Assembly (NCBI GenBank): GCA_022539475.1
Contig: VCMS01000065.1
Location: 124,001-188,000 of the forward strand
Direction of reading: 5' to 3'
DNA length: 64,000 nt
Origin: Gracilaria domingensis
Taxonomy: Eukaryota; Rhodophyta; Florideophyceae; Gracilariales; Gracilariaceae
Shown here: in pieces, positions 5,990 to 61,166 of the stretch
Numbering within the stretch: position 1 is the first letter of the stretch
How the letters are laid out: the number at the start of each line of letters is the position of its first letter
Made by a program: the position numbers and the translations under genes
Notes under the pieces: generated by a model
The model's input: the letters and a program-made list of their open reading frames with translations, nothing else
The model's database searches: none
Told to the model about the DNA's origin: nothing

Positions 5990-8943
5990 GCATGCGGTGC
6001 CTTCAATTTCTGTACTCGATACCGGTGCCGATCCGTGCGTATTGAACGCCTGTTTGGTACCTAAAGCGGTACTGTATATACTCAACCGGAAAGCTACACC
6101 CAAAGCTTTGGTAGACGCTAACAATCACTCTCTGTTAGTAGGAGAAACGCTGAACACTATGGTGCAAACTGGAACATGGAAGGTTAGAGTGAAGGTCTTC
6201 GTTGTGGACCGATGGGCTGCGGATTGCATCCTGGGAACTAGTTTCATTGACAATCATGTGAGAGCAATCTTCCCAGGATCGCAGACAATCCTGCTTGGTT
6301 ACAGTTGAAAGATGGCCAATCAAGATCATACGAAGACCATGAGTGGTTGGGCTCGAACCCGGACACGGAAACTCCCAACCGATACGGTTTCCAACAAGGT
6401 TAGGCTCACTAAAAGGGTTTCTATTGGCCTCATGCATTAGCCCCGTTGCGGTTTCATGCGATACACTAGGTCTGGTAACGTTGCAGAACCACCCAAGGAC
6501 AGCGGAACGACATCTGACCTCAATGGCGATCGGAACCGTTGAGAACGTACCGCACAGACCATTTCAGGTATACCTCACCCATTCTCGAAACCACACGGTG
6601 AACGTACCCAAGAATATCGTGGTAGGTGTCGCTCTACCAGCCCCAAGTGGTTTATTCATCATGCCAACCGAGTCCAGCGAGGTCGCCTACTCTAACGAAG
6701 GGGGAAGGAAATCGCTCGCGAACAACCAAGTGGTATCGAGCAATGCTATCGAACAGACCGTACCGGCTGACATTGATTCCGAAAGGGTATATTCCCGGAA
6801 GCAACTGGAGTTTGACCCAATGAAGGATTGGAGAGAGGAAGCCCATGTGGCTGAGGAGCACGATCACTACAAGCGACGTATCCTCTGTCTCCTTGAGGAG
6901 TTTGAAACCACGTGGTGGGACCAATTAGGTGAAATCAAGGCAGATGAACACCACATTGAACTGGTGCCTGTATCCAAACCAATATGACAAAAACCCTACC
7001 GTGCAGGTCCGAAAGCCTGCGAGGTGGAATTGGAAGAGGTGGAAAGGATGCTTCGTGAAGGTGTGATTAAACCCGCTTAATCTGAATGGGCGAGCCCGGT
7101 GGTGTTAGTTCAACGACGAGGAGATCCTCGAATGAGGTTCTGTATCGACTACAGAAAGTTGAACATTGTCAACGTACGACATTCGTACCCAATACCTAGG
7201 ATGGAACAGTGCATTGATTCCCTTGGAGATGCACAAATGTTTACCACTTTGCATGCCAATTGCGGTTATTGGTATATGCCTATAAGGGAGGAAGACCAAG
7301 ACAAAACGGCGTTCACGGGCCATCCTGTTCTTTACCGTTTTCATTGGATGCCTTTCGGTCTTTGTAACGCCCCCGCTACCTCTCAGCGAGCGTTAGATAT
7401 CATCTTTTCAAAGGTCAAATGAAGAACCACATTGGAGTATCTAGATGATGTTAACATCTATTCCAGATGGGTGGAAGAACATTTCGTTCATGTCAGTCAG
7501 GTATTGAGACTACTACAGACTGCAGGGATAACGTTGAAGCTTCGCAGTTGCTTCTTTTTCGATACCAAAGTGGAATACCTGGGCCACACAATTAGCCCAG
7601 GTCGACTTTCAGTTGCCAAGCGCAATTTTCAAGCAGTCCACGAAGCGGAAATACCGCGGTCCCAGACCGAGGTGAGGTCCTTTACTGGTCTTTGTGACGT
7701 TTACGGAAGATTCATGAAAGGATTCGTGACCATTGCGGCACTCTTGAATAGAAAGCTCGTAAAAGCTCAACCTGTGAGGTTTGAGACCCTTTCGGATGAA
7801 GAGATGGACGCGTTCGAAACGCTCAAGCGAGCGCTCTTGAACCCACCAGTACTGGCGGTACGCAAAGCTGGTTACCGCTACACGCTTGATACCGACGGTT
7901 CAGATGGCCAAATTGGTTGCTGCCTCATGCAGGAGCAAGAGAACGTCGAAAAGCTACCAATTGGTTATTGAAGTTGAGCACTGACCAAAACGGAGAAGAA
8001 CTATACAGTGACCAAGAAGGGATGTCTGGCAGTAGCGGGGAGTATAGTGGTGCTGTGTTCCCACCTATATGGGGAATGTTTCACCTTGCGGGCTGGTCAT
8101 GATTACTTTTGATGGATACTCGGATTATCAGATTCTTCCGGTCCGTTGGCCAGGTGGAGGTTACGTTTATCCGAGATGGAGTTCGACGTAGAGTACCGTC
8201 GCGGAATAAACCACAAGGTCGCATACGCTCTGTCTCGTCTGAGTACGAATGGGTTAGAGACCGAACCTGTGAAGGACGACATACCATGCTTCACAGTTTC
8301 TACCAACCCAAGTGGTAATTCGGCTGATATGTTACAAGGAGTTGGGAAACTATCTGGAGAAGGTGAGCTCTAGAACCACAATCTTTACCAATGTGTCATG
8401 AATCTTGGGGAAATGGACGTCACGCCCATTCCATAGCAGGAGTTCCTTCGGGAGCAAGCTACGATCCGTATTGCACGTCGCCAGCAGACCAAGTTGGTAC
8501 GAAGGGATCTCAGTTTGACGTCGACCGTAACAGCTATCTTGCGCGGAAGTAAACCCTCTACAGTCTCCTTCAAAAGGTCGTACCGAAACCCTTGCGCCCT
8601 AGAGTCCTTTGCCTGACTCAGTTTCCCAGGCTTGCTGGTCACCCAGGTGGTACAAGAACTTATTACACCCTGAGGAGGCCGTCCTACTGGCTACATATGG
8701 CACATGATGTGTCTCCTTCGTGGCACTCTGCGTGTCATGTTTGAGAACCCGTGGTGGTGTGGGCGAACATAGAAACTACCTCAAGCTGTTTCCTGCAGCG
8801 AGCCCTATGAAATTTGTCTCTATTGACCTTCTAGGTCCGCTTCCAAGCACCGCAAGGGGATATCAACACATTATGGTTATCAGCGATCGGTTCTTAAAGC
8901 TCACTAGAGCTATACATCTGAAGGACACGAAGATTACTACCTT
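5990..8943 (+). other. First part of the pol region of Gy1: protease, RT, RNase H, integrase N-terminus (broken)
   Basis: The protease segment has VLDTGA near 6,005. Reverse transcriptase lies at about 7,080-7,500 with segments YRKLN, SYPIPRM and MPFGL. RNase H lies at about 7,870-8,290, and the start of the integrase core (IDLLGPLP) is near 8,820. Matching Gy2 segments lie in the same order. The region ends where Plavaka A is inserted at 8,944. Confidence 0.85.
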
Positions 8944-9076
8944 CGTCTGTCTCTTGCAGATGCTAGTTTTTGGCGAGGGTCGTCCAGAAAGTGGCAAGGG
9001 TCGTCCAGTAAATTTTTTGAAAAAATATCGAGATCAATTATTTCAAAATTTGAAGATAATTGCTTGGGTCGTCCAG
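8942..9076. repeat. Left TIR, TT duplication and three GGGTCGTCCAG subterminal repeats of Plavaka A
   Basis: TT (8,942-8,943) precedes the left end at 8,944. GGGTCGTCCAG occurs at 8,977-8,987, 8,998-9,008 and 9,066-9,076, with an AT-rich stretch between copies two and three. The same three copies are kept in B and C. Repeated subterminal motifs are typical transposase-binding sites in CACTA-type elements; that role here is inference. Confidence 0.8.
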
Positions 9077-9441
9077 AATCGCTGTGCAGTAAATACTGGT
9101 GGGTTTTCCACTCGTGCTGGTTCTTTAGTCGAGGGCTACCTGAACGGTATTTCGCGAAGTCTAGGTTCAGTTTCCATTAAGGTGCACATTACACGATACC
9201 TTCTGCGGAATGATACCCTGCAACGCATGGAATACTGTTGCTAGTACAGTTGATGTCCATTATGAAATCATACCGTTTTATTCGTATCTATTCTTCTATC
9301 GACCGCTTTTGCTAACCACTACTTCGCTATATTACATGTACCATTTCCCCATGATGGAGCGGGTGTAGGCGCATTCTGCCGCAGCTGCCGCAGACTGCAC
9401 CTGCACCAAAGTGCGGTATCGGTAGAACAAATACGCACTCC

Positions 9442-9522
9442 GAGAGGATGAGGCGCGAAGCGCCTCATCCTCTCCGTTCCTCATGTAGGGAACCATGCCC
9501 AAATGCATGGTTCCCTACTTGA
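9442..9522. repeat. Two adjacent hairpins in Plavaka A (repeated in B and C)
   Basis: The first stem pairs GAGAGGATGAGGCG with CGCCTCATCCTCTC around a GAAG loop. The second pairs GTAGGGAACCATGC with GCATGGTTCCCTAC around a short loop. Both are kept in B (about 51,774-51,857) and C (about 55,850-55,930), with base changes only in the loops. Confidence 0.85.
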
Positions 9523-9570
9523 GGAACCTGCACCTGCATCTCGTGAGCTACGTCCGCATCAAAAGTCATT

Positions 9571-10320
9571 TACCTGTATACGCAAGCAGAAAGTATCCAT
9601 AAGTTAGTCAATGATCCGTTGGATACATTTGAAATGCGATGGAACGTACCATTGATAAAACAAAACAGAAACGTTGCGCTAGAAAAGTCAAGGGACCTAG
9701 TAACTCGCAAAAGAAAGAAGAAGCAGGAAAGGGATCGGTTAGATTACCAGCCCACCATCATCGTAAAGCGCGAAAGGTGTCGAAGCGAGAACTCACAAGC
9801 AAGGACACCAAGAATGCCCATGCAGCAAATATACCCCAAGATGCGATAAACGAAAGAGCGGCCTATGTCCCAACCAAGCACTAGAATCGCCTATCCCGAA
9901 CAGTCAGACATCGATCTTGAGAGACGAAATGAAATTGGTCGTTTACCTGTATACGCAAGCAGAAAGTATCCATAAGTTAGTCAATGCTCCGTTGGATATA
10001 TTTGAAATGCGATGGAACGTACAATTGATAAAGCAAAACAGAAACGTTGCGCTAGAAAATTCGAGGGACCTAGTAACTCGCAAAAGGAAGAAGAAGAAGG
10101 AAAGGGATCGGTTAGATTACCAGCAATCCATTCATCATAAACCGCGAAAGGTCTCGAAGCGAGAACTCACAAGCAACGACACTGAGAATGCCCATGCAGC
10201 AAAAATACCCCAAGATGCGATAAACGAGAGAGCAGCCTATGTCCCAACCAAACCAGAATCGTCTATCCTGAACACTCAGAGATCCAAGATCGCCAAGAAA
10301 CCAACTTGGTTTGTTGCGCA
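9571..10320 (+). repeat. 373-bp subterminal tandem repeats of Plavaka A (two units)
   Basis: The units start near 9,571 and 9,944; the landmark CGCAAGCAGAAAGTATCC recurs at 9,581 and 9,954. Each unit can be read as a short lysine/arginine-rich peptide (EMRWNVPLIKQNRNVALE...), but the frame ends differ between units and no family is known, so I treat it as a repeat, not a gene. B has about 3.4 units and C has two. Confidence 0.85.
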
Positions 10321-10389
10321 ATAGGCTCTAGCTTCTCGCGTCTTGCGCTACTTTTGAAAAGTAGCGCAAGAGGCGAAGCTAGAGCCTAT
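10321..10389. repeat. Long hairpin next to the tandem repeats of Plavaka A
   Basis: ATAGGCTCTAGCTTC at the left pairs with GAAGCTAGAGCCTAT at the right, and CTTGCGCTACTTTT pairs with AAAAGTAGCGCAAG in the middle; arms are about 33 bp and nearly perfect. Element C keeps only the right arm (about 56,730-56,745). Confidence 0.85.
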
Positions 10390-10646
10390 GGCGCAACGAA
10401 ATGAACCATTGTTTGCGTACTTACAGTCGTCGCTTTGGGTTACCGGGTTCCCGTTTTCACCCTTCAACTCGTTCTATATCTTGAACAAAAAGAAGAAGTT
10501 GAAGGTGATTAGCTTATTTCCTGCCGTTTACATGTCGCAGAGCGCGAAGAAACGCGGTGAGGATTGGTTAGTTTAGAGCAAAGATAAGTGGAAGGATATG
10601 GAAAAACGTACGAATAGACTGCACGGAATACACCCGTGAGATACGG

Positions 10647-10722
10647 ATGACTCCGTCCTACTTTTTTCCGCCCTCTACTTTAAGCAGCCTCCATAAAGTA
10701 GAGGGAGGAAAAAAGAAGGACG
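10647..10722. repeat. Hairpin upstream of the transposase gene, Plavaka A
   Basis: CCGCCCTCTACTTTA pairs with TAAAGTAGAGGGAGG around a short GC-containing loop. The matching place in C (about 57,015-57,075) has the same stem with different loop bases; B has another hairpin there (about 53,532-53,565, GCGTTCTACTCC with GGAGTAGAACGC). Confidence 0.7.
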
Positions 10723-11094
10723 GAGCGGAGTATAACGCGAGGATGTGGATGGCACGGATCACGACGGTAACGGAAGGTCGGACGTCGGAGGCGCGGCGGC
10801 GGCGGCGGAGGGAGGAGATTTATTTTTCTGTGCGAGATTGGACAGGTGTACAGCTTATAACGTTGGAAAACCACAGGTTTATAACCAGTGGTAGATAATA
10901 CGAGAGGTACACCCTTGTGTTGAGGTCGACGTGTACCTACGTTCCTTTTTGAACGAAAGCACGTGATTTAAACTCAAAATATATTCTCCGTTCTCAGCAT
11001 GACGTCGATCTTGACTGTCGCTCGACCTCCTTCTCCCTTCGGACGACCTTCCCTTGCAGTCTTTGTCGTCGTTTCTCGTTCATTTCTTCTTCCC

Positions 11095-11781
11095 ATGGTC
11101 TACTACTGTACACATAAGAAGCGTGGGTGCCCCTTCGTTACTCGCCGAGGAGTCTTATCTCTTCAACAGCATGTCAACCATTGCCCGTTTCGTCTGGAAG
11201 CAGCGCTGGAAGACGACAATAGGCGACCCACTCGGAGAAGCAAGCGTCTCAAGCTTTCCGCGCCCGCGGCCGCATCTCCCGAAACGGTCACTGCCCCTTG
11301 TCGCCTTCCCGAGCCTCCGGTGTCCGAGGACATCGTTGACCGCACTCCGTGCGCCCCTCCCATTCCGGACACTTCGCATTGTGTTTCTCCTTCCCCGGGT
11401 CCCGCGTCATTAGAGCGAGAACACGGAAGCAGTTCCCGCCCAGTGCCTTCTGAGAAGGCCCTCGGTGATTTGTATATGGATTATCTCACGGTTTATCTGG
11501 CTTCAGGAGCTTCCAACCTTGGTCATCGTGAAGCAGACGAGCTAATTGGGCTACTTCGGGACCCGCGATTCTCGCAAAAGCGATTCAACGAGACCATAAC
11601 AAGTTCCAAGCGCTGTACAGAACTGAAGAACGCCATTTTCGAACGATACGCCTCAAAGGACGGTTTAAATCGAAGAACTGTCTCGCCAGAAGGATGTAAG
11701 CTCAGCGCCACCCTCTACACGAGAGACCCCGTTCAGACACTTGTGAAACAGCTCCAGTTGGCTAACAACGAAAACACATAA
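11095..11781 (+). pseudogene. Plavaka A transposase, N-terminal fragment (3' part deleted)
   Basis: I chose the ATG at 11,095 because it is the first one kept in all three copies (MVYYCTHKK). The first 30 residues hold a Cys/His set that looks like a degenerate C2H2 zinc finger (C.....C.........H...C), followed by a proline/serine-rich linker. The open frame stops after LANNENT, where C continues for more than 300 further codons. From 11,790 the DNA matches C from about 59,796 on, so an internal piece of about 1.66 kb is missing. The fragment lacks the catalytic region and cannot be an active transposase. Confidence 0.85.
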
Positions 11782-12730
11782 ATCCTCTAAACCCCTACGA
11801 CTCTCGTCACCTTTTCCTTCCATAGAGTTTTATGCTGAATGAATTGAGCATATTCGAGCTATTGCAGCCCCCGTTCTCTATATCGCTGAGGATAATAGAG
11901 TAGGTAGCCAATCAGGACTCTATTTAGTTCTTTTTCGTGTTCCGCAGAGAGCTCCACTACCCCTATAAATCTGGTATTCTATGGTCGTTGAAGGCTTTCA
12001 TCGCTGATTGCGAGCATGTTTGAACGAACCAATTAAATTTAGATATATGCAAGAAACGCCAGAGCAAGAGCGCTGATGCTATAAGATAATACCTCATCTT
12101 CATCATCGGTAGAATTTGTATCTTCACCGGAAACAATGGTGGTGAGTATTTAAGTAGCCAACTACTGCCGTCACTGTGGTTTTCTGCAGGTAATCCCGGT
12201 GCATTATCATTTTTGTGCGTGCGGGTCCGGGCGCGCTTTTTTTATTTCCTTTCTTCGCTGCTTTGAGCAGTATAAATAGTGTACTGTGCCAGTAAGTACA
12301 AAAATTGTAGCGAACACAAGTTTATGTATTGTGTTACTAGTTGAGGAACAATTGGATGATAGAGACGAGTAAGAGCTTGCCTAATGGATGTTTAGTTAGC
12401 TCGTAAGAAAAGTACTGCAAGGAATGGAGCATAGTGGGTTTTGGGAGGTGTTGGAATGCTGGAAAATGACCTGAAAATGTGCCCGAGATAGGGGTTTTTT
12501 TACTGGACTTAGACTTATGAAAGCAATAATCGCGCTCTCCGGTCTTGCGTTTTGAAGCGCTTCTAATACTCAAGGTACATTCTCACTTATGTACAGCCCT
12601 TTGCCTCCGCGCCAATCCACGTGGACAGCGGTGCTAACGTGTTAGCGGGCGGGTGCATCGTAATGAGTGCGGGAAGTGTCGATGAAGGTGTTTTGGGAGG
12701 TCTCGGCATGATGCCAAAATGGGGCCAGAA
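11782..12730. other. 3' core of Plavaka A, shared with C
   Basis: Matches C at about 59,796-60,735 with moderate divergence (shared landmarks: TACGACTCTCGTC, GCATATTCGAGCT-like, TTTGGGAGGTGT-like and GCGTTTTGAAGCGCT). No convincing reading frame. This part leads into the hairpin array. Confidence 0.7.
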
Positions 12731-13165
12731 CGTGTCCGCGGGCGGGGGGGGGGGGGTCGGTTGTGTTAGGGTGGCTACCCTAACACAACCGGACCCCCCG
12801 CCCGCCGGCACGTTTTAGCCGATTTTTTAAAAAATGTGCTTTTTTATGCCCGCGGTCGGGGGGGTCCGGTTGTGTTAGGGTAGCTACCCTAACACAACCG
12901 ACCCCCCCCGCCCGCGGGCACGTTTTGGCCGATTTTTTGAGAAATGTGCGATTTTATGCCCGCGGGCGGGGGGGTCCACTCGTGTTAGGGTACCAACCCT
13001 AACACGGCCGACCCCCCCCCCACCCGCGGGCACGTTTTCGCCTCATTCTGGTAAGGACCACACACCTCCCAAAACACACAACGCACGCAGCGCCAGCCAA
13101 AAGGTAACGTGCCCGCGGGCAGGGTGGTCTAGTTGTGTTAGGGTAGCGACCCTAACACAACTTGT
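12731..13165. repeat. Tandem array of telomere-like hairpins in Plavaka A
   Basis: Three full palindromes and one shorter one, about 105-115 bp apart, each with the centre TTAGGGTAGCTACCCTAA (or a close variant), then CACAACCGG and runs of G/C. Arms reach about 33 bp, starting CCCGCGGGCGGGG and ending in its complement. Spacers between units carry the conserved ATTTTTTGA.AAATGTGC. A matching array lies in C at 60,735-61,166. Confidence 0.92.
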
Positions 13166-13209
13166 TCTCGCTCGCTGCCAGTACGACAGAATGACATTAT
13201 GACATGTCG

Positions 13210-13889
13210 GACGACGGCGCGTGAAAGTTGCGGCACCACGTCCGCAAGCCCACGCGCTGCCTGGTGCAGAGGCACTCTTCCCGTCTGCACACCGTGCTGA
13301 AGCGCTCTCACGATTTCGTCACCCCCGTCTGCCCTAGCTATCCGCCCACGCTGCACTCGCCGCCAGATGACGACGCCATCGGCGGCGTCATTGTGTATCG
13401 CGTCCTGCTCGATGCGCGGGCGCGCCCCTCCTCTCGCTCTTGTCCGGCCCCTTCAAGGAGGCCTCCTCCAAGACCATCACCGTACACCAGCTCTTTGACT
13501 CCTTCGAGGTCGTCCGCAAGTTCCTCCACTGCGAGCCTATTCTCATGGATGACGTCCCGCTTGAACTGCCCCTCGTAGCCGACGGCTGTGGCCTCACCAC
13601 GCTCTACCGCGCCTGCTTCACCCACGCCGAGGAGCGCTCCAGACCGCATGGTGCATCGCTGCATATACATATCGCAGAGCTGGTCATCCGCTTTCTGCCC
13701 ATCATGGCCATTGTTGATGTGCCTAACCGCTTCAAGACCTACATGGCCATGCGCTTAATGCTGGAGATGAGGCAGCTCAACGCTTATTTTGGAGAAAACT
13801 CTGTCCACATCCGCCGCCTTTGTCGCAAAGCTGTTTTTCTTTTTGCCATTCCGCCGTGCTTTTCGAGGACGCCATTGACTCAGGTTTGA
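13210..13889 (+). pseudogene. Captured fragment of an unknown host gene
   Basis: GC-rich DNA with a protein-like reading in two frames: the first part (about 13,228-13,415, ...PPDDDAIGGVIVYRVLL) ends and a second frame takes over (about 13,425-13,889, ...GPFKEASSKTITVHQLFDSF...). The change of frame falls in a GCGCGGGCGCG run near 13,415-13,425. The protein looks globular, with leucine- and arginine-rich helices, but I do not recognise the family. It starts directly after the hairpin array, where A and C stop being alike, so I read it as captured cargo. Confidence 0.5.
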
Positions 13890-14605
13890 GAACGGGCTAT
13901 TGAAGAAATAGTCAGATGCCCATGTCGACAAGTGTCTAATCGATGCCAACGGTATAGCGGAGACAAAGGATGCATTTGGGGACTGTATTTGACATCTAAT
14001 GAGGTATGGTGCCCCAGGCTGGTTGTAGTGATGAGTTACGTGATGTTGACGGCGTCAACGAGCTGACGTCGGGGTGCCGAGTACACGCACAGTTACGTCA
14101 TTCACGTGAGTGAACTTTGACCACGGTCGTCACCGAAAGGGTGGCATCAACTACTTCGGCGAAGTACGTCCCAAGTTGGAACGTACTACGCCAGCGCGAT
14201 TGGTACTAAGTTGGCACGCAGGATTAAGTATGAAACTTGCGCGTCGGGCGCAGACATATTGGTAAGGTTACGTATAAACGCACATGTGATCAAAAACAGC
14301 AGCACGTGCAGCCTTTCTACTGTCACTTTTACTACCGGCTGTAGGTTTGAGAAGCTCCGGTTTACTCATCCTCAAAAGAGATTTCGTACCTTGCGACGGC
14401 AGCGTTTCCGCGAGCACGGTCTAGAACGTGGGTAGGCACTTTGGTCAGAAAGGTCTCTACGTAATTCACTGCATCCGCGTAACAGAGCGAAGCTTGTTGT
14501 TGGTACTTTCTTTGTTCTACGCTAACGCCCTCTTCAGTAGGAATGAAAAGTGGGGTGTACACGCTAGCATCTAGCTGCGCCATGGTATTATCTGAAGCGC
14601 CAGCT
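13890..14605. other. Cargo spacer with short palindromes
   Basis: No recognised gene. Short palindromes GTTGACGGCGTCAAC (near 14,045) and TACTTCGGCGAAGTA (near 14,152), and several ACGTCA-like motifs. A minus-strand frame at 14,362-14,583 (73 codons) reads plausibly but has no known family; it may be a further piece of the minus-strand gene that follows. Confidence 0.4.
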
Positions 14606-16096
14606 CTAGCTCTTCACTGCAGTAGATGTTTGTCGTAGTCTTCGTTGATCATCACCGCGTCTTTGTGCGGAGGTCACCATGTAGGCCGCTTGAGAGTCCT
14701 TCGTGGTTCTTCGAATACATTCCAGCCTTAACAGTTCCATAGTCTCGTATATGGCATGTGAGATGAGACCGTCCGAGAAGAATCCCGGCGCAGGTACCGA
14801 AGTAGCTGCAAGCAAAGTACATCTCAACAAGCAACGCCCATCTGATCGTTCCAATGCTTGCTTTACACCCTTGTACTCCTTGACCTCAAGCCCGCTCTTC
14901 AAGTCCATAATGTCGTTGTTGCGTTCTGGGTTCTCTACCACATTCAGTACCATAGTCATTGGGATGGTTAGCACTAAAAACGTGTGGCACTGTACCATGA
15001 GCACTTTCACTTCCCTGTCGCTCTTCCTGTCAGGTACACGACTTTCTGATGCGCCTCGTATGAACTCCTGAAAGCCTTCGTAGTCGCGTATCACATCGAA
15101 ACCGATCTATGCAGGGGCTGGGACAATAATGCTTGCTTCAACCTGACGAGCGCCGCCATCACAGGCGCGCAGTCGTAGGCGCGGCGTGCTTTGATCCATC
15201 ATGGACGGAAGTGCAAGTCGTAAATAGAACTGATCCCTTCGTCCGGGTATGGTGTTCTGACTTAGTACAATTTGACCGTCGCGTCTGGCTGAGAGATAAC
15301 CTTTTTGAGTTCGCAGCGTGACGAGTTCGTCATCTGCGACAATCTCCACATCAACACGTTCTGCGCGATGATGAGACTGGGATCCATTCAGTGCATTTTC
15401 GGCATCCTTGCTGTTGAAATCTGGGGCGGCGATGAGCTTGTCGAGCTGTTCGGTGAAGCCAAGATACAAGCCTCTCGAGTCGCGGATGCGCGCGGAGCGA
15501 GTTGGGCTGTCATACTCGAGTATGAAGCCATCCCAACCAGCCTCCTTTCCGCGAGCCGAGGCGAGCGGTGTAGCAGGCTTTGATGCAAGAAACCAATCAA
15601 ATGCTTTGCTTTGTACACACAAGGGACATGATCTGGTAGCCTGGTAGGCCGCGGCCATGCTGAAATCTTGTGGCGGTGGTTCGTCACGGCGTTGGGATAC
15701 AGTTGGAGGCAAAAGCACATGATTAATTAAAAAGGTCTCACAAGAAGCTACGGAGTTGGCGTACACACGGGCGCGTCTGGTGGCGAGATGCACGCTGAGA
15801 TACCTGCCCGTCGTGCAAGTGCACTGCAAGAAGACCTGCGGTACGGCCTCTTCGGCGTTAGAAAGATGAATTTGAAAGACAGCGGCGGCCATATCTGACG
15901 CCGTGAGAGTGATGACTCCGGTTTTATGGTCGACCGCCAGCTTTGCACGCGGAATTGTATCAGAGGGAGCGGCTGTGGCAATGCGAGCTCGATCGACTCG
16001 TTGCGACTCTGGAGTGTCGAAGTGGAGAAAGAAAAGGGTGGATGAAACGTGAGGCTGCGAGGGAGACACCCAGCCCAAAGGCTCGTATGGAAACAA
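14606..16096 (-). pseudogene. Captured fascin-like (beta-trefoil) gene with an in-frame stop
   Basis: Read from 16,096 leftward. Three lobes resemble fascin-type actin-crosslinking folds: GRYLSVHLATRRARVYANS (about residues 95-115), IRDSRGLYLGF (about 205) and LRTQKGYLSARRDGQIVLS (about 260-280, followed by RDQFYLRL). A TAG at 15,107-15,109 ends the first 329 codons, but the same frame stays open for about 160 further codons (VIRDYEGFQEFIRG...), so the two parts were probably one protein of about 490 residues. The second part has no family I know. In A it lies divergently from the HECT fragment. Stop plus location inside a transposon make it a captured pseudogene. The family call is by pattern only. 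Confidence 0.45.
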
Positions 16097-16584
16097 GGGA
16101 CTTCATCTGGAAGAATCGACCATGTTCACTCTCATGGAGATCATTCGGGAACAGCCATCAATTTGCGAGACATGGACTCAGTGTGGACAGCCCTCGCTGC
16201 TCTGCAACGCGGCCCAAATCACAGAGTTTCCCGAAGTGAGGTAGGTGGTTCGATATTAAGTGCGATTGTTCAATCATACGCACGCTAACGAGGCCTGAGC
16301 CCCGGACCTTAGACTGATGTTCACACATTGGTTTATTAAAGGAAACAAGACAACTCGAGAAGCCCCGCCAACTCGAATGTAGAAGTTAACCACTCTGATG
16401 CTGCTACTGGAGATGGGAGCAGTTCGGGCCCTGTGCGCGGATCCCAAAGGCTGCAGGAACACGGAGAGTGTAGTAGAGCTCCTGGACGACAGAGGGCTCT
16501 TCGAGATGATGCTGAAGCTTCGGGGGAAGTACTGGCGGATATAATGCTGTCAGACAAACTTATCCTTTCACCTCACAAGCTATC

Positions 16585-17235
16585 GGCGACTGGTTTAGTG
16601 CCATCTATAGCATTGGTTATTGCGGTCTTGAAGCATCTGCACTGGATATCGGAGAAGCTAAGTTCTAGTTCAACTTCTGTGAGCGCAAGCACTGTCGCTT
16701 CTGGTGACTTTGCCGCTGATCTCCCTTTCCATTTGGAAGACCCCAAAGTACATTTTGTGAGCCACAAATTGACTGCTAAGGTGACTAGACAGTTGTCTGG
16801 TCCTATTGCGTTGTGTGGAGGGATTATGCCGGTTTGTTGCTTCACAGTAGCGAGGGAATCGTCATTTCTAATCCCGTTGAATATAATAAGAACGCTGTTT
16901 CAGTCAACGTCTCTGGGCGTTTCGCGAGCGCTTCATTTGTTGCAGACGCGCAACGAAATTTCAGGGGTTGCGACTCACTGATCTTCTCGACACTATCGTG
17001 AAAGCGAAACAAGGATAGGGCGTATTGAACGCCAAAAGGTTCGAATAAACCGCGACCGAATCCTCGAATCTGCGATCAAAGTGATGAACATGTATTGCTC
17101 TCATGGTACAGTGCTGGAGGTCGAATACTTCAACGAGGCTAGTACAGGATTGGGACCTACTCTTGAGTTTTACACTCTTACCTCGAGAGAAATTCAGATG
17201 GTACATCTGAAGCTTTGGAGAAGTAGCAGTTCGCA
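16585..17235 (+). pseudogene. Captured fragment of a HECT E3 ubiquitin ligase (TRIP12/UPL3 class)
   Basis: Segments match the region just before and at the start of the HECT domain of TRIP12/UPL3/UPL4 ligases, in order: EDPKVHFVSHKLTAKVTRQL, LSGPIALCGG, GVSRALHLLQ, RQKVRINRDRILESA and VLEVEYFNEASTGLGPTLEF. The last is the strongly conserved start of the HECT N-lobe. HECT ligases pass ubiquitin from an E2 to a substrate through a C-terminal cysteine; that C-lobe is absent because similarity stops near LKLWRSSS at about 17,235. A TGA at 16,979-16,981 lies in the same frame between GVSRALHLLQ and RQKVRI; it could fall in a short intron, but a plain nonsense change is simpler. The long N-terminal armadillo part of the family is also missing. 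This is a fragment, not a working gene. Confidence 0.85.
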
Positions 17236-17304
17236 GACAATCAAGACGAAGGCGGAATCGGAAGCGGCAACACACTTCATTCATCAGATTCGAGATACTA
17301 TCTC

Positions 17305-17345
17305 GAACTGGGAGGTTAACATTAGTAATGTTCACGTTCCAGTTC
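17305..17345. repeat. Imperfect palindrome between the HECT and PDS fragments
   Basis: Arms GAACTGGGAGGTTAACATTA and its near complement (17 of 20 pairs) around a single G. It lies in about 160 bases that belong to neither neighbouring gene, at the join of two oppositely oriented truncated genes. Confidence 0.75.
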
Positions 17346-17398
17346 GTCAGTCTTCTACACGACGAAGAAGTCGAAGGCAATCTAACATGCTTTCTGAG

Positions 17399-18037
<639 letters not shown>

Positions 18038-18182
18038 TTAGGCGGTCATGGTGTGAGTCGGATGAGAAAGAATGTCGTCGACATTGAGCGAGCGCGGGAA
18101 ATTGATAAAGTGTGTCATGAAAATGTTTACATAACAGAAATGAGCTACAGGCGCCCGGCAGCCACGATGCAGCGATATGAAA

Positions 18183-19171
18183 TCATCACTTCAGTGCAAA
18201 GCCGCCGTCTCCAATGAGAAGCTCCAAAATGGTCGCCGACAGCGCCACGGCCACGTTGTCATCGCTTCCAATCTCTTCCGCCACCAGCTCCGCGCCCGTG
18301 CTCAGCAACGCAATCAGCGCAACAAAGGTGAAGGTACCTGTGCCCGGCACAACTGCCGTTTCCAAGCACAAAAACCAGAGGCAGCAACGCGATGAAGCTC
18401 GTCGAAGCGCCCAGCACAAACGCAATGCTGCCGGCCACACTCTTGTCGCCTCTAGGCCAATTTGTGGACTGTACTACGCGTCTAATTACCTCCGCAAACC
18501 TGTCGCCCATGCACATGCTCGCCACGGCAACCGCTGCGGCTGACGTGCGGAACAGAAAGAGCGTGAGCAGCAGCAGCGTCACACTGTAAATCAGCGGTCC
18601 GTGTAGAGCTTCAGGCGGGCTTCTTTCTCTTGCCAACGCGCGCGCCAGCTTTCTCGCGGAGGTGGCCGACGACAAGCCCGACACTACAAGCGCAGCGTAG
18701 AACAGCAGCAGCACGCAGGCGGGAGACGGACGCGCGTGGGAGATCGCGTTATACAGTGGCCACAACGCTAGGAAAGCCGGCCCGCGACTGATTTGTATAA
18801 TCTTCCTCGTCGTGCGCGAGAAAAACAGCCAAAGCGCTGTTACCCGTTGCCAGACGCCCAGCCACAGGGTGACGGCGCTGACGATCACTAGTGTGAGCTG
18901 CGCGTCGCGCGACGCGTCGGTTAGCGCCAGCAGCATGAACGGTCGCGCCGCACTTCAGGCAAGCGCGGTGTGCGGGGCGGTGAGGAATGAGGGTAATGCG
19001 ACGGAGAGCGTGCGTGGCGGCGTGGCATTGGCCGATCAAGAGCGATGGAAGCTGCGGGAGGAAGCACGTCGCCTTCATGGCAGACAGCCGCGCGCACACC
19101 GTGAGGGTGCGACGCGGCGAGCGACAGCGGCGCGGCGTCGGCAGATGATAAAAGACTGCGGAGGACAGCAC
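18183..19171 (-). pseudogene. Captured phytol kinase-family gene (VTE5/FOLK-like), disrupted
   Basis: The core is at 18,936-18,259 in one minus frame, with segments RGPAFLALWPLY, LHGPLIYSVTLLLLTLF, MGDRFAEVIRR and DKSVAGSIAF, matching plastid phytol/farnesol kinases, integral membrane enzymes that phosphorylate free phytol for tocopherol and chlorophyll recycling. The expected C-terminal segment (FVALIALLSTGAELVAEEI..DDNVAVALSATI) is in the next frame, 18,340-18,186, so there is a one-base shift near 18,340-18,365. A possible transit peptide (M at 19,171, rich in R, S, P) is in yet another frame; an intron or a further indel must lie between about 18,960 and 19,070. Several hydrophobic helices are visible. 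The stop is only about 150 bases before the PDS start, same strand, suggesting a compact host locus captured as one piece. Confidence 0.78.
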
Positions 19172-19344
19172 CAGTATCGGCAGAGGCGATCATCGCCAAT
19201 AGTCAGCCAGGGGAGGCGTGGCGAGACGCCTCCACAGCATGTGGTACAAATGCTGGGGCCGCTACTGCTGTGTATGCCAGCGCGAATACACGCGTCACGT
19301 GCCACGTGCGCGGCGTCGTCGTCGTTGAGTCTTCCATACCCCCC

Positions 19345-19675
19345 GAAAGATATAGGGAACCCAGATTATTGCCCATATTCTATTAAACGATCAAGGAAAT
19401 GACTGTAGAGACATCCGTATAACAAAAAATTACCACTTTTTTTGAAATATGGGGAACCGAGCCGTATGGGGTACGCTATATCGAGTTGATTGGCTAAATA
19501 TGGGGAACCCAGATTGTCTTCTTCTTTCCTTGGTAGAATATGCCATACAAACCGACCTCGAATGATTCTTCGCATTCTACAAAGGTCTACAGTGGCTGAT
19601 CCATACCCCAAAAGCACACATGTTTTTGCAAAACGTTTTTCAATTCTTGTGATCGTCACGAAATATGGGGAACGC
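19345..19675. repeat. Repeated ATATGGGGAAC motif in the 3' part of Plavaka A
   Basis: Exact copies at 19,447-19,457, 19,498-19,508 and 19,663-19,673, a near copy (ATATAGGGAACCC) near 19,348, and inverted CCATACCCC near 19,336 and 19,600. They lie about 1.4-1.7 kb from the right end. They may be transposase-binding sites of the right end or a piece of captured DNA. Confidence 0.6.
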
Positions 19676-21046
19676 GTTTCCGGCACTCCATACAGTTTTC
19701 CGGAGATACCGCGTCGGCTGCTGCGCAGTCGTCTTCGCCGAGTTAGGTGGCGCGCGATGTAGTCGGATGGCGCCGACTTCGCGGCGCGCGCACTCCCAAG
19801 CGCGCACGTTAAGCTTTTATCGCAGGAGGCTGACTCAGTAGGTGCTGTGTTTGACGTGCAGGTGAGTTCTACGCCCAAGCAACTCCCGTAATTGCTGAAC
19901 AACCTTCTGAACAACGACACGCCGTTGCTGAATGCATTCTTTCTGTGCTCTTTGCACAAGCCAGTGAGCGAGAGCTTGGACGCAATTATGGATAGTGTTA
20001 AGAAGAATGACCGTACTAAGGATATACGTTTTTTAATACATCCAAGAAAGAAGTAGCAAAAGTAAAGAGCACTCAAATTTGAGGCACCGTGGTTAAAAAC
20101 ACAATTAAATGATATTAAGAGAGATAATTAGTGGGCAGACACTAGTGAAAGATGAAAAGGTATACATATGAGCGTCCGAAGAGAACTCCGATAATAGCAA
20201 AACGATGATCTAAGTTGAACAAAAGCGCGTGCGACAAGATTAGAAGGCCAAACTTCTCAGCATTCCTTGCTTGCACTGTATCGCATTGACTTCTTCGATC
20301 TAGTGAGGGCGCCATGTTTTGATTACGCATAGCGAATACGGAAGGGAAGATATGGGAAGTGAGGGAAGAGGTGCGGCACATAAGGGGCCATTTTTGACAC
20401 TGAATGCGAAATGTGGTAGGTTTAAGGACTGAAAGAGTCTTTTGAAGAAAAGGAGTAAGGAAAAGAGGAAGGTGCTGGAACAGGTGTTGCCGGAGGCAGT
20501 CGGGGCTCCGTTATTGACTGAGTTTTGGGGTAGGGCGTGGCACTGCGAACGGCGTGCCGGATTTTCAAAGTGCGAGAGGAGAGAAAGATGGGGAGGAATG
20601 GGAAGCCGTTTTGGGGCAAGGCGGATGCACAGTATTTGGGAGAGTTGCCACCCGTACTTCTACAGAATAATTTTTCTGGAGATGGAGAGAAAGGATCCGA
20701 ACGCGTGATGGGCGAGAAGTAGGTGAATAGTGGGGACGGTGAAGAATGGGAAGTAATGATGGGATGATTGAGGTGAGGTGAGTTGCGATTGGCATTGCAA
20801 CATGGGAGAAAATGGAAACGCAAACTAGCACAAGCGCAGATTTGAGAGAGGGTCGCGGAAAAGCGTGGATGGGGCGGTGCGGCGAAGTAGAACCTCTACA
20901 AAAACTAGGAGACCCAAGAATTAAACTGCGCGAGATGGAATTTAATATTCCAAAATTTCTTAATTTTTTGAGTGCCAGTCTCTGCCACCCCCTCGCGCGC
21001 CCCAATTAGCCCAAAAACTAGCTTAGTTTCCAAAGCGAACAGACTA
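19676..21046. other. Right part of Plavaka A without recognised genes
   Basis: A minus-strand open frame at 19,366-20,076 (236 codons, basic, no known family) covers the repeat motif and is probably chance. From 20,400 on the plus strand is purine-rich. No copy of this segment is seen in the rest of the window, because the right ends of B and C lie outside it. Confidence 0.45.
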
Positions 21047-21073
21047 TATTCCACTTTGCAGAACACAGAGGTT
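21047..21073. repeat. Right TIR of Plavaka A and TT duplication
   Basis: The inverted end CCTCTGTGTTCTGCAAAGT pairs with the left CGTCTGTCTCTTGCAGATG at about 12 of the first 17 positions. TT at 21,072-21,073 repeats 8,942-8,943. Confidence 0.75.
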
Positions 21074-33836: not shown

Positions 33837-34408
33837 TGTAGTATAGCTCGGCCAGATCAACGGGGGCTCTACAAGACCAAGTGGTGACGTCACGGGCTCC
33901 CGGGCACGTGTGTCTACTGTACCACGTGGGACGCGCAAGCGCAGGCTTGGACAGGACTAATTAGTCTATTCTCGATAGTTTAGAATTAATAATTACTAGG
34001 TAGTGTAGATATGTGGCCGGGGTGGTGCACCACAAATGCACCTCCCGGTGGCCCACGGGGCACTAGGCCCGTGAGAGCCGGAGGGGCGCTCGGGTGTACT
34101 AAACCCCCGAGACGCCAACTTCCCACACCAGATGGTAAAGTCAAGCACCAACTAGGCTAATTTGACACCAGTTCGGTTCTACAGTCACCAATTGGTAAGT
34201 CTAGTAGTCCTCTAATAGTTTTGCTGACCTCGAGGGTTATACGTGCCTGCCGCACACCAGTGCAGGCGTATTTACCACTTGGTCACCGTGCACTATAGGC
34301 AACGGCGGGTGCTGCCGACCTATTAGGTGTCACGCGTTTCACTCCTCCGCCGGGTCGAGCCCACGCAGGGCTCCCCACTAGCAGCTCGCACCGATCGGTT
34401 ATGCCACA
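33837..34408 (+). repeat. 5' LTR of Gy2
   Basis: 572 bp, TGTAGTATAGC to GCCACA, about 98.6 percent identical to 44,988-45,559. It contains three ACCANNTGGT palindromes (33,876; 34,187; 34,274). Confidence 0.95.
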
Positions 34409-44987: not shown

Positions 44988-45559
44988 TGTAGTATAGCTC
45001 GGCCAGATCAACGGGGTCTCTACAAGACCAAGTGGTGACGTCACGGGCTCCCGGGCACGTGTGTCTACTGTACCACGTGGGACGCGCAAGCGCAGGCTTG
45101 GACAGGACTAATTAGTCTATTCTCGATAATTTAGAATTAATAATTACTAGGTAGTGTAGATATGTGGCCGGGGTGGTGCACCACAAATGCACCTCCCGGT
45201 GGCCCACGTGGCACTAGGCCCGTGAGAGCCGGAGGGGCGCTCGGGTGTACTAAACCCCCGAGACGCCAACCTCCCACACCAGATGGTAAAGTCAAGCACC
45301 AACTAGGCTAATTTGACACCAGTTCGGTTCTACAGTCACCAATTGGTAAGTCTAGTAGTCCTCTCATAGTTTTGCTGACCTCGAGGGTTATACGTGCCTG
45401 CCGCACACCAGTGCAGGCGTATTTACCACTTGGTCACCGTGCACTATAGGTAACGGCGGGTGCTGCCGACCTATTAGGTGTCACGCGTTTCACTCCTCCG
45501 TCGGGTCGAGCCCACGCAGGGCTCCCCACTAGCAGCTCGCACCGATCGGTTATACCACA
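44988..45559 (+). repeat. 3' LTR of Gy2
   Basis: 572 bp, directly after a polypurine tract and directly before the CTTAG duplication. It has the same three ACCANNTGGT palindromes as the 5' LTR. Confidence 0.95.
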
Positions 45560-51230: not shown

Positions 51231-51904
51231 CTCGTAAGGACAGTCGAGTCACACCCACAAGTTGTGGTACCACACCGTCTGTCTCTTGCAGATGCTAGTT
51301 TTTGGCGAGGGTCGTCCAGAAAGTGGCAAGGGTCGTCCAGTAAATTTTTTGAAAAAATATCGAGATCAATTATTTCAAAATTTGAAGATAATTGCCTGGG
51401 TCGTCCAGAATCGCTGTGCAGTAAATACTGGTGGGTTTTCCACTCGTGCTAGTTCTTTAGTCGAGGGCTACCTGAACGGTATTTCGCGAAGTCTAGGTTC
51501 AGTTTCCATTAAGGTGCACATTACACGATACCTTCTGCGGAATGATACCCTGCAACGCATGGAATACTGTTGCTAGTACAGATGATGCCCATTATGAAAT
51601 CATACCGTTTTATTCGTATCTATTCTTCTATCGACCGTTTTTGCTAACCACTACTTCGCTATATTACATATACCATTTCCCCATGATGAAGCGGGTGTAG
51701 GCGCAATCTGCGGCAGATGCCGCAGAGGGCACCTCCACCATAGTGCGGTATCGGTAGAACAAATACGCACCTCGAGAGGATGAGGCGCGAAGCGCCTCAT
51801 CCTCTCCGTTCCTCATGTAGGGAACCATGTCCAGATGCATGGTTCCCTACTTGAGGAACCTGCACCTGCAACTCGTGAGCTACGTCCGCATCAAAATTCG
51901 TTTA

Positions 51905-53245
51905 CCTCTATACGCAAGCAGAAAGTATCCATAAGTTAGTCAAATATCCGTTGGATACATTTGAAATGCGATGGAACGTACCATTGATAAAACAAAACAG
52001 AAACGTTGCGCTAGAAAAGTCGAGGCACCTAGTAACTCGCAAACGGAAGAAGAAGAAGGAAAGGGATCGGTTAGATTACCAGCCCACCATCATCGTAAAG
52101 CGCGAAAGGTGTCGAAGTGAGAACTCACAAGCAAGGACACCAAGAATGCCCATGCAGCAAACATACCGCAAGATGCGATAAACGAAAGATTAGCATATGT
52201 CCCAACCAAGCACCAAAATCGCCTATCCCGAACAGTCAGACATCGATCTTGAGAGACGAAATGAAATTGGTCGTTTACCTGTATACACAAGCAGAAAGTA
52301 TCCATAAGTTAGTCAATGCTCCGTTGGATACATTTGAAATGCGATGGAACGTACAATTGATAAAACAAAACAGAAACGTTGCGCTAGAAAAGTCGAGGGA
52401 CCTAGTAACTCGCAAAAGGAAGAAGAAGAAGGAAAGGGATCGCTTAGATTACCAGCCCACCATCATCGTAAAACGCGAAAGGTCCCGAAGCGAGAACTCA
52501 CAAGCAAGGACACCAAGAATGCCCATGCAGCAAACATACCGCAAGATGCGATAAACGAAAGAGCAGCATATGTCCCAACCAAGCACCAGAATTGCCTATC
52601 CCGAACAGTCAGACATCGATCTTGAGAGACTAACAGTCAGACATCGATCTTGAGAGACGAAATGAAAATGGTCGTTTACCTGTATACGCAAGGAGAAAGT
52701 ATCCATAAATTAGTCAATGCTCGGTTGGATACATTTGAAATGCGATGGAACGTACCATTGATAAAGCAAAACAGAAACGTTGCGCTAGAAAATTCGAGGG
52801 ACCTAGTAACTCGCAAAAAGAAGAAGAAGAAGGAAAGAGATCATCCCTTCTCGCTTTACGATGAATGGATTGTTGATAATCTAACCGATGATCGGTTAGA
52901 TAAGCAATCATCCATTCATCCTAAAGCGCGAAAGGTGTCGAAGCGAGATCTCACAAGCAAGGAAACCAAGAATGCCCATGCAGCGAACATACCGCAAGAT
53001 GCGATAAACGAGAGAGCAGACTATGTCCCAACCAAGTACCAGAATCGCCTATCCCGAACAGTCAGACATCGATCTTGAGAGACGAAATGAAATTGGTCGT
53101 CTACCTGTATACGCAAGCATAAAGTATCCATAAGTTAGTCAATGCTCCGTTGGATACATTCGAAATGAGGTGGAACGTACCATCGATAGAGCAAAACAGA
53201 AACGTTGCGCTAGAAAAGTCGACGGACCTAGTGACTCGCAAAAGT
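51905..53245 (+). repeat. 373-bp tandem repeats of Plavaka B (three full units and a partial one)
   Basis: The landmark CGCAAG (or CACAAG) recurs at 51,913, 52,286, 52,687 and 53,112; the larger steps come from a 28-base duplication near 52,610-52,645 and an AT-rich insert near 52,845-52,915. The fourth unit breaks off near 53,245. Confidence 0.85.
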
Positions 53246-53911
53246 AACCCAAACCCTTTTTTCTGCCGTTTACCTGTCCCAGAGCGCGAAGAGACGTGGT
53301 TAGGATTGGTTAGTTTAGAAAAGAGATACGTAGAAGGATATGGAAGCACGTACGAAAAGCCTGCACGGAATACATCCTTGAGATACGGAAGATGTCCGCT
53401 TTATAGAGGCATCCATGAGGCGGACATGAAGCGTACTTCATTCTCCTCCCCGTACTCTACTTCGTAGCAAGTGCAAGGGCGGAGAAAGGTACGACGGAGC
53501 GCGGCTCGTGATCCGTGCCATCCACATCCTCGCGTTCTACTCCGGCGGAGTAGAACGCGCGACGGTAAATGGCACGGGTCACGCCGGTAACGGTAGGCCG
53601 GACGTCGGAGGCGCGGCGGCGGCGGAGGGAGGAGATTTATTTTTCTGTGCGAGATTGGACAGGTGTACAGCGTACAACGTTGCGAAACCACAAGTGTATA
53701 ACCGGTGGTAGATAATACGAGAAGTACACCCTTGTGTTGAGGTCGACGTGTACCTACGTTCCTTTTTGAACGAAAGCACGTGATTTAAACTCAAAATATA
53801 TTCTCTGTTCTCAGCATGACGTCGATCTTGACTGTCGCTCGACCTCCTTCTCCCTTCGGACGCCCTTCCCTTGCAGTCTTTGTCGTCGTTTCTCGTTCAG
53901 TTCTTCTTCCC

Positions 53912-55350
53912 ATGGTCTACTACTGTACACATAAGAAGCGTGGGTGCCCCTTCGTTACTCGCCGAGGAGTCTTATCCCTTCAACAGCATGTCAACCATTG
54001 CCCGTTTCGTCTGAAAGCAGCGCTGGAAGACGACAATAGCCGGCCCATTCGGAGAAGCAAGCGTCTCAAGCTTTCCGCACCCGCGCCCGCATCTTCCGAA
54101 ACGGTCACTGCCCCTTGTGGCCTTCCCGAGCCTCCGGTGTCCGAGGACATCGTCGACCCCACTCCGTGCGCCCCTCTCATTCCGGATACTTCGCATTGTG
54201 TTTCTCCTTCCCCGGGTCCCGCGTCATTAGAGCGAGAACACGGAAGCAGTTCCCGCCCAGTGCCTTCTGAGGAGGCCCTCGGTGATTTGCATATGGATTA
54301 TCTCACGGTTTGTCTGGCTTCAGTAGCTTCCAACCTTGGTCATCGTGAGGCTGACGAGCTAATTGGGCTACTTCGGGACCCGCGATTCTCGCAAAAGCGA
54401 TTCAACGAGACCATAACAAGTTCCAAGCGCTGTACAGAACTGAAGAACGCCATTATCGAACGATACGCTTCAAAGAACGGTTTCAATCGAAGAACTGTCT
54501 CGCCAGAAGGATGTAAGTTCAGCGCCACCCTCTACACGAGAGACCTCGTTCAGACACTTTTGAAACAGCTCCAGTTGGCTAACAACGAAAACACATTCTT
54601 CCACCCTATACCTCAGACCCACTCCACGAAAATATCTCACCCCATGTCCGGCTCTCTCGCAAGAGACGCCACCTCAAAACTTAAGGAAATGTTCATGGGC
54701 TCGTTGGATAGTAGAATAGTGTGGTACTCCCAAGAAATAAGTTACAGTGAATCTTTCGTAGGTCTTCTGCAGGTATACACCGATAAGTCTTCAACAACTC
54801 TAAAGCAAACATCGGTTACCGCCTATCCTCTTCACCTCATATTTCTCAACTTCTCCGACGAGCTACGCCGTAAGTGTATCCGTGATGACCTCACAGTAGT
54901 GGCATACTTCCCTACCACACTGATCAAGGTTTCCGCATCTGAAGCAGACGCAATGCCATTCGTTTCTAGCAGGTCTCTACGCGAGTCCAGGATGCAAATC
55001 CTTCAAGAATCTCTTCGTCAAGTCCTGGAGCCCATTATAAATCTCACGCAGAAAGTTTTCAGTTCATCGGCGAAGACAAACTAAGTCGAGTGTGACATCC
55101 TCTGCAAGTTTTCGTGCGGATACTTTTGAGGCTAAAGACATTCTGTTAACTCTTCACGGGACCAAAACGGGGAGCTCCTGTCATAGATTCGAGGCCCCTC
55201 TCTCATCTTTATGCAGTAGTATTCTTACTTCATTCACTGGACCCTCTCAAGACCAAACCAAAAGCGTTAGAGATACATACTCAGTTATTCTAGAATATGC
55301 AAAGAAAGACGAGGCAGGAAGAAGTATATGTCTTGCGAGGGAGAGTATAT
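53912..55350 (+). pseudogene. Plavaka B transposase, interrupted by Plavaka C
   Basis: ATG 53,912, same N-terminal Cys/His motif and linker as A and C, then the transposase core: LLQVYTDKSSTTLKQTS, AYPLHLIFLNFSDELRRKC, LTVVAYFPTTLI. These fit the Plavaka/Tnp2-like pattern (YSDKT..., ...P..L.l.N.....R.K......LLGYLPT). The frame is open to 55,084 and then shifts; about 270 bases later C is inserted. The copy is therefore inactive. Confidence 0.85.
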
Positions 55351-57199: not shown

Positions 57200-57449
57200 A
57201 GTGTACAGCGTACAACGTTGGGAAACCACAGGTTTATAACCAGTGGTAGATAATACGAGAAGTACACCCTTGTGTTGAGGTCGACGTGTACCTACGTTCC
57301 TTTTTGAACGAAAGCACGTGATTTAAACTCAAAATATATTCTCCGTTCTGAGCAACACGTCGATATTGACTGTCGCTCGACCTCCTTCTCCCTTCGGACT
57401 CCCTTCCCTTGCAGTCTTTGTCGTCGTTTCTCGTTCATTTCTTCTTCCC
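57200..57449 (+). promoter_or_regulatory. Conserved region upstream of the Plavaka transposase
   Basis: Almost identical in A (10,845-11,094), B (53,660-53,911) and C. It contains GTCGACGTGTACCTACG, the G-box GCACGTGATTTAAAC about 130 bases before the kept ATG, and an AT-rich AAAATATATTCT that could serve as a TATA region. The upstream ATG present in A and B (MTSIL) is absent in C, so I take MVYYC as the start. Confidence 0.5.
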
Positions 57450-60734: not shown

Positions 60735-61166
60735 CGTGCCCACGGGCGCGGGGGGGGGTCGGTTGTGTTAGGGTGGCTACCCTAACACAACCGGACCCCC
60801 CTGTCCGCGGCCACGTTTTGGCCGGTTTTTTAAAAAATGTGCTTGTTTATGCCCGCGGACGGGGGGGTCAGGTTGTGTTAGGGTAGCTACCCTAACACGA
60901 CCGGACCCCCCCACCCGCGGGCACATTTCGGCCGATTTTTTGAAAAATGTGCGATTTTATGCCCGCGGGCGGGGGGGTCCGGTCGTGTTAGGGTAGCTAC
61001 CCTAACACAACCGGACCCCCCCGCCCGCGGGCACGTTTTTGCCTCGTTCTGGTAGCGTCAACAGACCTCCCAAAACACGCAACGCAGGCAACGCCAGCCA
61101 AAACGTAACGTGCCCGCGGGCAGGGTAGTCAAGTTGTGTTAAGGTAGCGACCGTAACACAACTTGT
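60735..61166. repeat. Tandem array of telomere-like hairpins in Plavaka C
   Basis: Three full palindromes and one shorter one, with the same centre (TTAGGGTAGCTACCCTAA or TTAGGGTGGCTACCCTAA) and the same order and spacing as A (12,731-13,165). Stem bases differ between the copies but mostly stay paired. Confidence 0.92.

Follow-up and report, generated by a model that had tools for sequence, protein, structure and literature searches.

How does a 12-kb insert in a Gypsy integrase gene come to carry pieces of several host genes? This question is raised by a 64,000-nucleotide stretch of the red alga Gracilaria domingensis (C65:124001-188000, hereafter the window; C-numbers denote contigs of the assembly, which comprises 77.9 Mb in 680 contigs, and positions without a contig are those of the window). 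We conclude, with a probability of roughly 0.85, that the insert belongs to a Plavaka-like family of DNA transposons as a non-autonomous element of Pack type, and that its overall history is one of capture of host DNA followed by its spread. The evidence comes from the ends of the element, from the host loci that still hold the parents of its cargo, and from the cargo junctions that it shares with other copies.

Ends and target site of the element

In an alignment of eleven left ends (window 8944, 51276 and 55351, and those in C22, C156, C64, C544, C124, C470 and, twice, C245), all 11 begin at the base equivalent to 8944 and the flanks all differ, while nine aligned right ends terminate at the base equivalent to 21071. 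The family ends read CGTCTGTCTCTTGCAGATGC and TTTGCAGAACACAGACG, with CGTCTGT and ACAGACG as terminal inverted bases; the window copy has a G at the last-but-one base, giving ACAGAGG at its right end, and the C22 copy one other change. The 2-bp duplications agree in seven of the eight copies having both ends (TT in the window, AT at C65:179351 and in C124, AA in C22 and C544, GT in C156 and C64). Outside this count stand C319, where no left end was found, both C245 left ends and the C65:175276 left end, to which no right end was assigned. With at most 2 mismatches, the left end matched the genome 555 times and the right end 572 times, and the reversed-pattern controls gave 0 in both cases. In a sample of 91 left and 94 right ends, we found 36 left/right pairs lying no more than 20 kb apart, with a median of 11.5 kb, some of the pairs being nested.

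When the insert and one TT are removed, the flanks give ...LTRAIHLKDTKITTLAIAFFNNGVYPYGTPLDLLTDDGSN..., a continuous Gypsy integrase frame, and a paralogous Gypsy element at 37.5-40.7 kb of the window carries the same integrase stretch uninterrupted. In Pfam searches the left flank contains reverse transcriptase and RNase H above the cut-off, and the right flank matches to rve_3, an integrase family (E 1.5e-4), and to chromo (E 1.4e-4), both below it; the short flank piece at 8708-8941 gave no Pfam match. An earlier note on this DNA, made from its letters alone, had proposed the boundaries 8944..21071, imperfect inverted ends, a TT duplication, integrase sequence of the Gypsy element (its Gy1) on both outer sides and a left end shared with two other copies, which are those at 51276 and 55351. 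All of these proposals held, and other elements with the same ends, which it had suggested looking for, include some that share cargo junctions as well.

The host block and its shared junctions

One host locus of 9.1 kb, C91:161572-170668, contains side by side the HECT ligase, phytoene desaturase (PDS), a membrane-type open reading frame (ORF) and the 5' part of a Notchless gene; gene order and strands are identical in C91 and in the element. At C91 the HECT ligase is a single open frame of 1927 aa (HECT E 2.3e-64, TRIP12-type repeats), PDS is a single open frame of 630 aa (TIGR02731, 798 bits for a cut-off of 569) and the Notchless/Rsa4 homolog is an open frame (E 2.9e-152 to NLE1), whereas the frames of the window copy are broken. 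The locus is flanked by SWIB and RWP-RK genes, and no element end lies within the 18 kb fetched around it. Since the elements in C156 and C245 carry the segment 161572-170668 in host order and orientation, save for deletions and one insertion in C245, we read the four corresponding pieces of the window element as the remains of one captured block.

The fragments of at least five unrelated host genes described in the earlier note are real, and each has a parent elsewhere, at C91, C58 or C22, where its proposed parent search was to look; the present site does not hold them as intact, single-copy loci of the host. What did not stand is their independence: four of the pieces are neighbours in the host, and the cargo is chiefly one 9.1-kb block with two later pieces rather than five separate fragments. 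A sixth piece, the Notchless/NLE1 5' end, had been missed. The names HECT ligase and PDS match the domains of the C91 parents. The name phytol kinase was not confirmed: we found no convincing family (Pfam to E 10, NCBIfam), no homolog at E 1e-5 and no convincing match among solved structures. The name fascin-like is weak, as it reached E 0.01 only, below cut-off; the parent frame has a Polyketide_cyc/START-like domain.

The block recurs throughout the genome. Among 46 PDS candidates 40 were scored, and all 40 match: the window, C91 and 38 other places, for seven of which more flank was fetched. PDS lies between both element ends in C22, C64, C544, C124 and C470, and has the right end only in C319; the C245 place has no ends of its own and is interrupted by other copies. 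We compared the left junction by free local alignment in seven copies of three subfamilies (C64, C544, C470, C319, C65:179351, C156 and C245), excluding C124 and also the window and C22, where the C58 piece described below occupies the site. All seven join the same element base to host base 161572, with an overwhelming score in C156 and C245 and with 2-5 points above 300 shuffles in C544, C470 and C319. The right junction, in Notchless, is equal within a few bases in the window, C22, C156, C245 and C65:179351-192562, and an insertion of 365 bp with an ATACC duplication marks the window, C22, C156 and C245.

Over the PDS part, each of nine elements is 91.7-93.7% identical to the host. Identity is only 87-89% between window-type and majority-type elements, and the five majority copies are mutually 99-100% identical. 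In the PDS tree the host branch measures 0.012 and the distances to the elements, taken from its node, 0.047-0.079; only 6 sites set all elements apart from the host. The sites variable among the elements are distributed over codon positions 1/2/3 as 42/42/37 (plus 1), the pattern to be expected in the absence of selection. Comparisons of pieces with their parents are mostly even too (17/11/20 for HECT and 24/19/30 for the START gene in the window, 23/20/26 for C58); the N-terminal PDS part of the majority type leans to third positions (13-15/13-14/21-23).

Later captures

The C58 and C22 pieces are later additions to the C91 block in the window lineage. Both are present in the sister element C22:962257-974721, where the C58 piece is reduced to 64 bp, and in the window and C22 copies the START piece abuts the HECT part directly, without element sequence between them.

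The second element of the region (55351-68562, or C65:179351-192562, reaching past the window end) is bounded by an AT duplication and keeps scraps of the C91 block. It holds a piece of a Myb gene, from the DNA-binding domain to the gene end, that is 99.1% identical over at least 3592 bp to a donor in C130 with a frame of 1295 aa. All 55 candidates of a Myb search were scored, giving 17 near-complete copies besides the donor, 95-100% alike at the protein level and without a stop in 10 of the 17. Among the matches listed, a right element end lies about 1.7 kb from at least 16 of these 17, and none lies there by the donor. This degree of identity points to a second, very young capture.

In the majority subfamily, C64:199166-203019 holds other sequence, with a 205-aa ORF 89% identical to C33:63012 (225-aa frame), possibly a further donor.

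Transposase and candidate partners

PF18759 was above the cut-off in every one of the 123 genome candidates scored, out of 672, many of them frames of 1000-1110 aa. Among copies with the window element's left end are one at 57327-59099 (E 5.1e-18) and one in C113 (E 8.1e-19). The latter, from C113:223974 onward, has the left end at 95% identity; its transposase frame, open over 1049 aa, terminates in a 110-bp palindromic array, and its CHRC at 466 and HLLDH at 744 correspond to the C(2)C and H(3-4)H motifs of Plavaka (CMCT group), the D/E residues themselves being unassigned. The middle of this element continues in C198 and C188, both with the right end. A further open frame, of 1025 aa, follows the same left end in C249. 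In the window copy, the transposase gene is internally deleted, as the earlier note had it: about 1.65 kb is missing by comparison with C22, C64, C156 and others. The C(2)C/H(3)H stretch is missing from this copy, and the remaining 269 aa, which precede the domain, gave no PF18759 match. The assignment to a Plavaka transposon with captured host fragments is supported by PF18759 in the relatives sharing the left end, together with the parents and the shared cargo junctions.

Proposed history of the element

An ancestral element took up one contiguous 9.1-kb host segment, with HECT, PDS, the membrane-type ORF and the Notchless 5' part, from a donor locus that persists as C91. Its descendants then lost and gained pieces, the C58 and C22 fragments being added in the window lineage, and the window copy moved into the Gypsy integrase with duplication of TT. 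Because its own transposase gene is deleted, this copy presumably moved in trans, with relatives such as those of C113 and C249 as candidate partners. The captured pieces are probably neutral passengers, now drifting.

Several observations weigh against this history. The joins, the copies and the donors were all read from assembled contigs. The C470 duplication does not match (GT/TG). In the left-junction test the shuffles were not beaten in C64 (19 vs 20) and C65 (13 vs 13), and the weight there rests on the exact shared position. The 1.36-kb HECT deletion (163782-165144) occurs in the window, C22 and C156 and not in C245, at odds with the PDS tree, which groups C156 with C245 (100/97), so that exchange between copies or two losses have to be assumed. 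The C-terminal PDS parts show a clear third-position excess relative to the parent (7/5/23 in C156, 8/8/24 in C245); it could be taken as selection in the element rather than in the host, although we tentatively attribute it to change on the host side. The C91 membrane-type ORF (169225-170240) lies in two frames, which reflects either a frame that has truly changed or an error of sequencing. The 741-bp stretch between the C58 and C22 pieces has no match to the fetched parents, and the C113 contig stops short of the right end of its element. Finally, a protein search for the transposase in other organisms, with words from its first 500 residues only, found none at E 1e-5 among 7989 candidates scored.

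Alternative explanations

A family this long, with some 550 copies of its ends, is error-prone for assemblers, and C470 and C319 have an identical right flank in the right-end alignment, so that a misassembly or repeat collapse joining unrelated gene pieces has to be considered. We hold it to be highly improbable: the same joins recur with different flanks and their own duplications in C22, C156, C64, C544 and C124, the 11-13% divergence between window and majority types in the PDS part is unlike that of collapsed repeats, and the integrase frame of the empty site is intact. A flow in the reverse direction, with transposon-borne genes as the source from which those of C91 were built or duplicated, might be suggested by the element-like PDS places, which are more numerous than the host copy, and is most unlikely when the open C91 frames are set against the broken window copies. 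Moreover, C91 PDS is 88% identical to that of Agarophyton chilense and 81% to that of Gracilariopsis chorda, the locus lacks element ends and the 365-bp insertion, and it is from the host sequence that the elements radiate. A segmental duplication followed by insertions was also considered and rejected. Retention of the cargo for a function, be it as a domesticated protein or through antisense or small-RNA effects on PDS, could draw on the 38 further PDS places, on the stop-free Myb copies and on the third-position excess in C156 and C245. The even codon-position changes in the PDS N-terminal part and in most other comparisons, and the broken frames, make it very unlikely; as to Myb, the open frames follow from the youth of copies so close to each other and, in the one compared, to the donor.

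For the loading of the host DNA within the capture-then-spread history, two routes come into question, repair copying and composite elements. Most likely, the DNA was copied in from other loci, by template switching, while a broken or gapped element was being repaired. We favour this repair copying on account of the direct START/HECT join between unlinked donors and of a piece added at the edge of older cargo. Support from the junctions is weak, and the proposal rests on plausibility more than on them. Microhomology is 1 bp at START/HECT, the only clean donor-donor join, and the overlap at the C58/START join of C22 is also 1 bp. The six distinct internal deletion joins show 4 bp (the shared HECT deletion), 4 bp (C245), 3 bp (C22), 1, 0 and none, so that only three of the six reach 3-4 bp. 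The alternative for this step, without repair copying, is that two elements inserted to the left and right of the C91 block, shed the ends facing it and were then mobilised together as a hybrid that carried the host DNA along, a composite loading that has been proposed for Pack-CACTA (PMC13317346, in the portion available). The first block could be accounted for just as well in this way: it is a single unbroken stretch of host DNA between the left and right modules, the middle of the C113/C198-type elements is absent, and the donor join has little microhomology. Yet there is no element sequence between START and HECT, the C58 piece occupies the left margin of the older cargo, and a second and a third capture would each require new flanking pairs of elements. 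We regard it as a real possibility that falls somewhat short of an even chance.

Under repair copying, the palindromic array at the transposase 3' end might act as a break-prone capture port: it would stall or break, and repeated fill-in with host DNA at this fixed loading site would make the family a collector of multiple genes. The C91 block and the C58 piece start no more than about 10 bp apart, roughly 50 bp to the right of the last palindromic arm. We consider a port doubtful, as it rests on two events, the second of which may have reused the edge of the first.

Relation to known systems

Gene fragments are repeatedly captured and shuffled into chimeric assemblies by the Pack-MULEs of rice and by Helitrons, as here; these differ from the window element in their transposases, ends and duplications. 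To our knowledge, gene capture by cut-and-paste transposons is known mainly in land plants.

As described in the available parts of two papers (PMC8903248, PMC13317346), Pack-CACTA and other Pack-TYPE elements resemble the window element in having inverted ends with a duplication, in being non-autonomous, in multiplying host coding pieces and in leaving their donors present. Unlike those of plants, the window element has a Plavaka-type transposase and a red algal host and belongs to copies that measure 12-14 kb where determined; its main cargo is one contiguous multi-gene block to which later captures were added, and part of the transposase gene is kept. It has host coding fragments with identifiable donors between inverted ends, and the 1.65-kb deletion makes it non-autonomous. 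By the packFinder rule, as given in the accessible text of PMC8903248, a Pack-TYPE element has no transposase match longer than 250 bp; with the 269-aa frame remaining, packFinder would class the window copy as derived from an autonomous element, though it works like a Pack-TYPE one.

With the fungal PlavakaA and PlavakaB groups, as far as the consulted sections of PMC12730594 describe them, the family has in common the PF18759 profile, the C(2)C and H(3)H motifs (in C113) and 2-bp duplications. Indeed, PF18759 above the cut-off in its relatives and duplications in 7/8 copies, where the Plavaka (CMCT) group has 2-3 bp, are what membership of that group entails. The fungal termini are TGT..ACA or CATCA..TGATG, neither of which CGTCTGT..ACAGACG fits, and on these termini we place the family in a Plavaka-type lineage outside both fungal groups. 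The fungal cargo, moreover, is an intact TET/JBP gene, whereas here it consists of host gene fragments. No Plavaka element with captured host gene fragments and no algal Pack-type element appears in the titles and abstract openings listed by our searches of open-access literature, which agrees with the earlier note's remark that no such algal case was known. The 2023 Gracilaria genome paper gives 46-66% repeats in four assemblies, and the words Plavaka and EnSpm were not found in the portion of it at hand.

The finding is somewhat larger than first noted: a multi-gene capture with donor and intermediates, and a young second case. It extends gene capture to a red alga and to the Plavaka group, with four neighbouring genes taken together, and indicates that Plavaka-like elements can pick up and spread host genes. 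One genome holds the donor locus, the junctions in common, copies at intermediate stages and a Myb capture that is very young (99%), which makes the question of how host DNA is loaded directly testable from junctions. For annotators, broken PDS, HECT and Myb copies in Gracilaria domingensis can be transposon cargo.

Features of the element and neighbouring observations

Table 1. Features of the Plavaka-like element and its target site, in window coordinates
Feature	Position	Strand	Remarks
Whole Plavaka-like element	8944..21071	+	12,128 bp, within Gypsy integrase gene; from termini and genome-wide ends
TT target-site duplication, left copy	8942..8943	.	empty-site join
TT target-site duplication, right copy	21072..21073	.	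empty-site join
Left module	8944..11779	+	~91-97% to fetched sister elements; subterminal 373-bp repeats 9565-10284
Transposase N-terminal part, 269 aa	10972..11781	+	frame cut by ~1.65-kb internal deletion at 11779/11795
110-bp palindromic repeats	12746..13042	.	transposase gene 3' end, left of cargo; extra arm 13106-13161
Captured piece 1	13212..13849	+	unnamed gene C58:76689-77328 (1182-aa frame), 88.6% identical
Stretch between C58 and C22 pieces	13850..14590	.	741 bp
Captured piece 2	14591..16101	-	C22:595947-597457 (592-aa frame, Polyketide_cyc/START-like domain), 95.1% identical
HECT E3 ligase part (TRIP12-like), from C91	16097..17387	+	1.36-kb internal deletion
Phytoene desaturase N-terminal part, from C91	17388..18037	-	TIGR02731 E 1.5e-65; fragment under whole-protein cut-off
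Membrane-type ORF, from C91	18259..18954	-	comparison with C91
Later insertion, ATACC duplication	19339..19705	.	~365 bp, inside cargo; not in C91 nor C65:179351-192562
Notchless/NLE1 (Rsa4) gene 5' end, from C91	19706..19985	+	comparison with C91
Right module	20354..21071	+	20605-21071 common to all full copies seen, 20354-21071 to all except majority (C64) type

The membrane-type ORF is uninterrupted in the window, C22 and C156 copies, unlike in C91. Palindromic 110-bp arrays, with cores such as GTTAGGGTAGCTACCCTAAC, are also found at 60752-61038 and, in several elements, at the transposase 3' end. A truncated third copy (51276-55350), consisting of the left part and transposase, adjoins the second element at 55351.

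The middle of the C198/C113-type elements holds a 415-aa ORF (C198:8276-9520, minus strand). Of 611 candidates, 101 were scored, with 96-100% identity, and 86 of the 101 have no stop. No Pfam or NCBIfam family was found for it; apparently, it is an accessory gene conserved in the transposon. A 342-aa coiled-coil-like ORF (C198:10435-11460) extends into the right module, and a remnant of it seems, judged by eye, to be present at 20433-20708 of the window element.

The paralogous Gypsy element has direct repeats on both sides (33837-34408 and 44988-45559), 572 bp long and 98.6% identical, which are probably the long terminal repeats of a young element.

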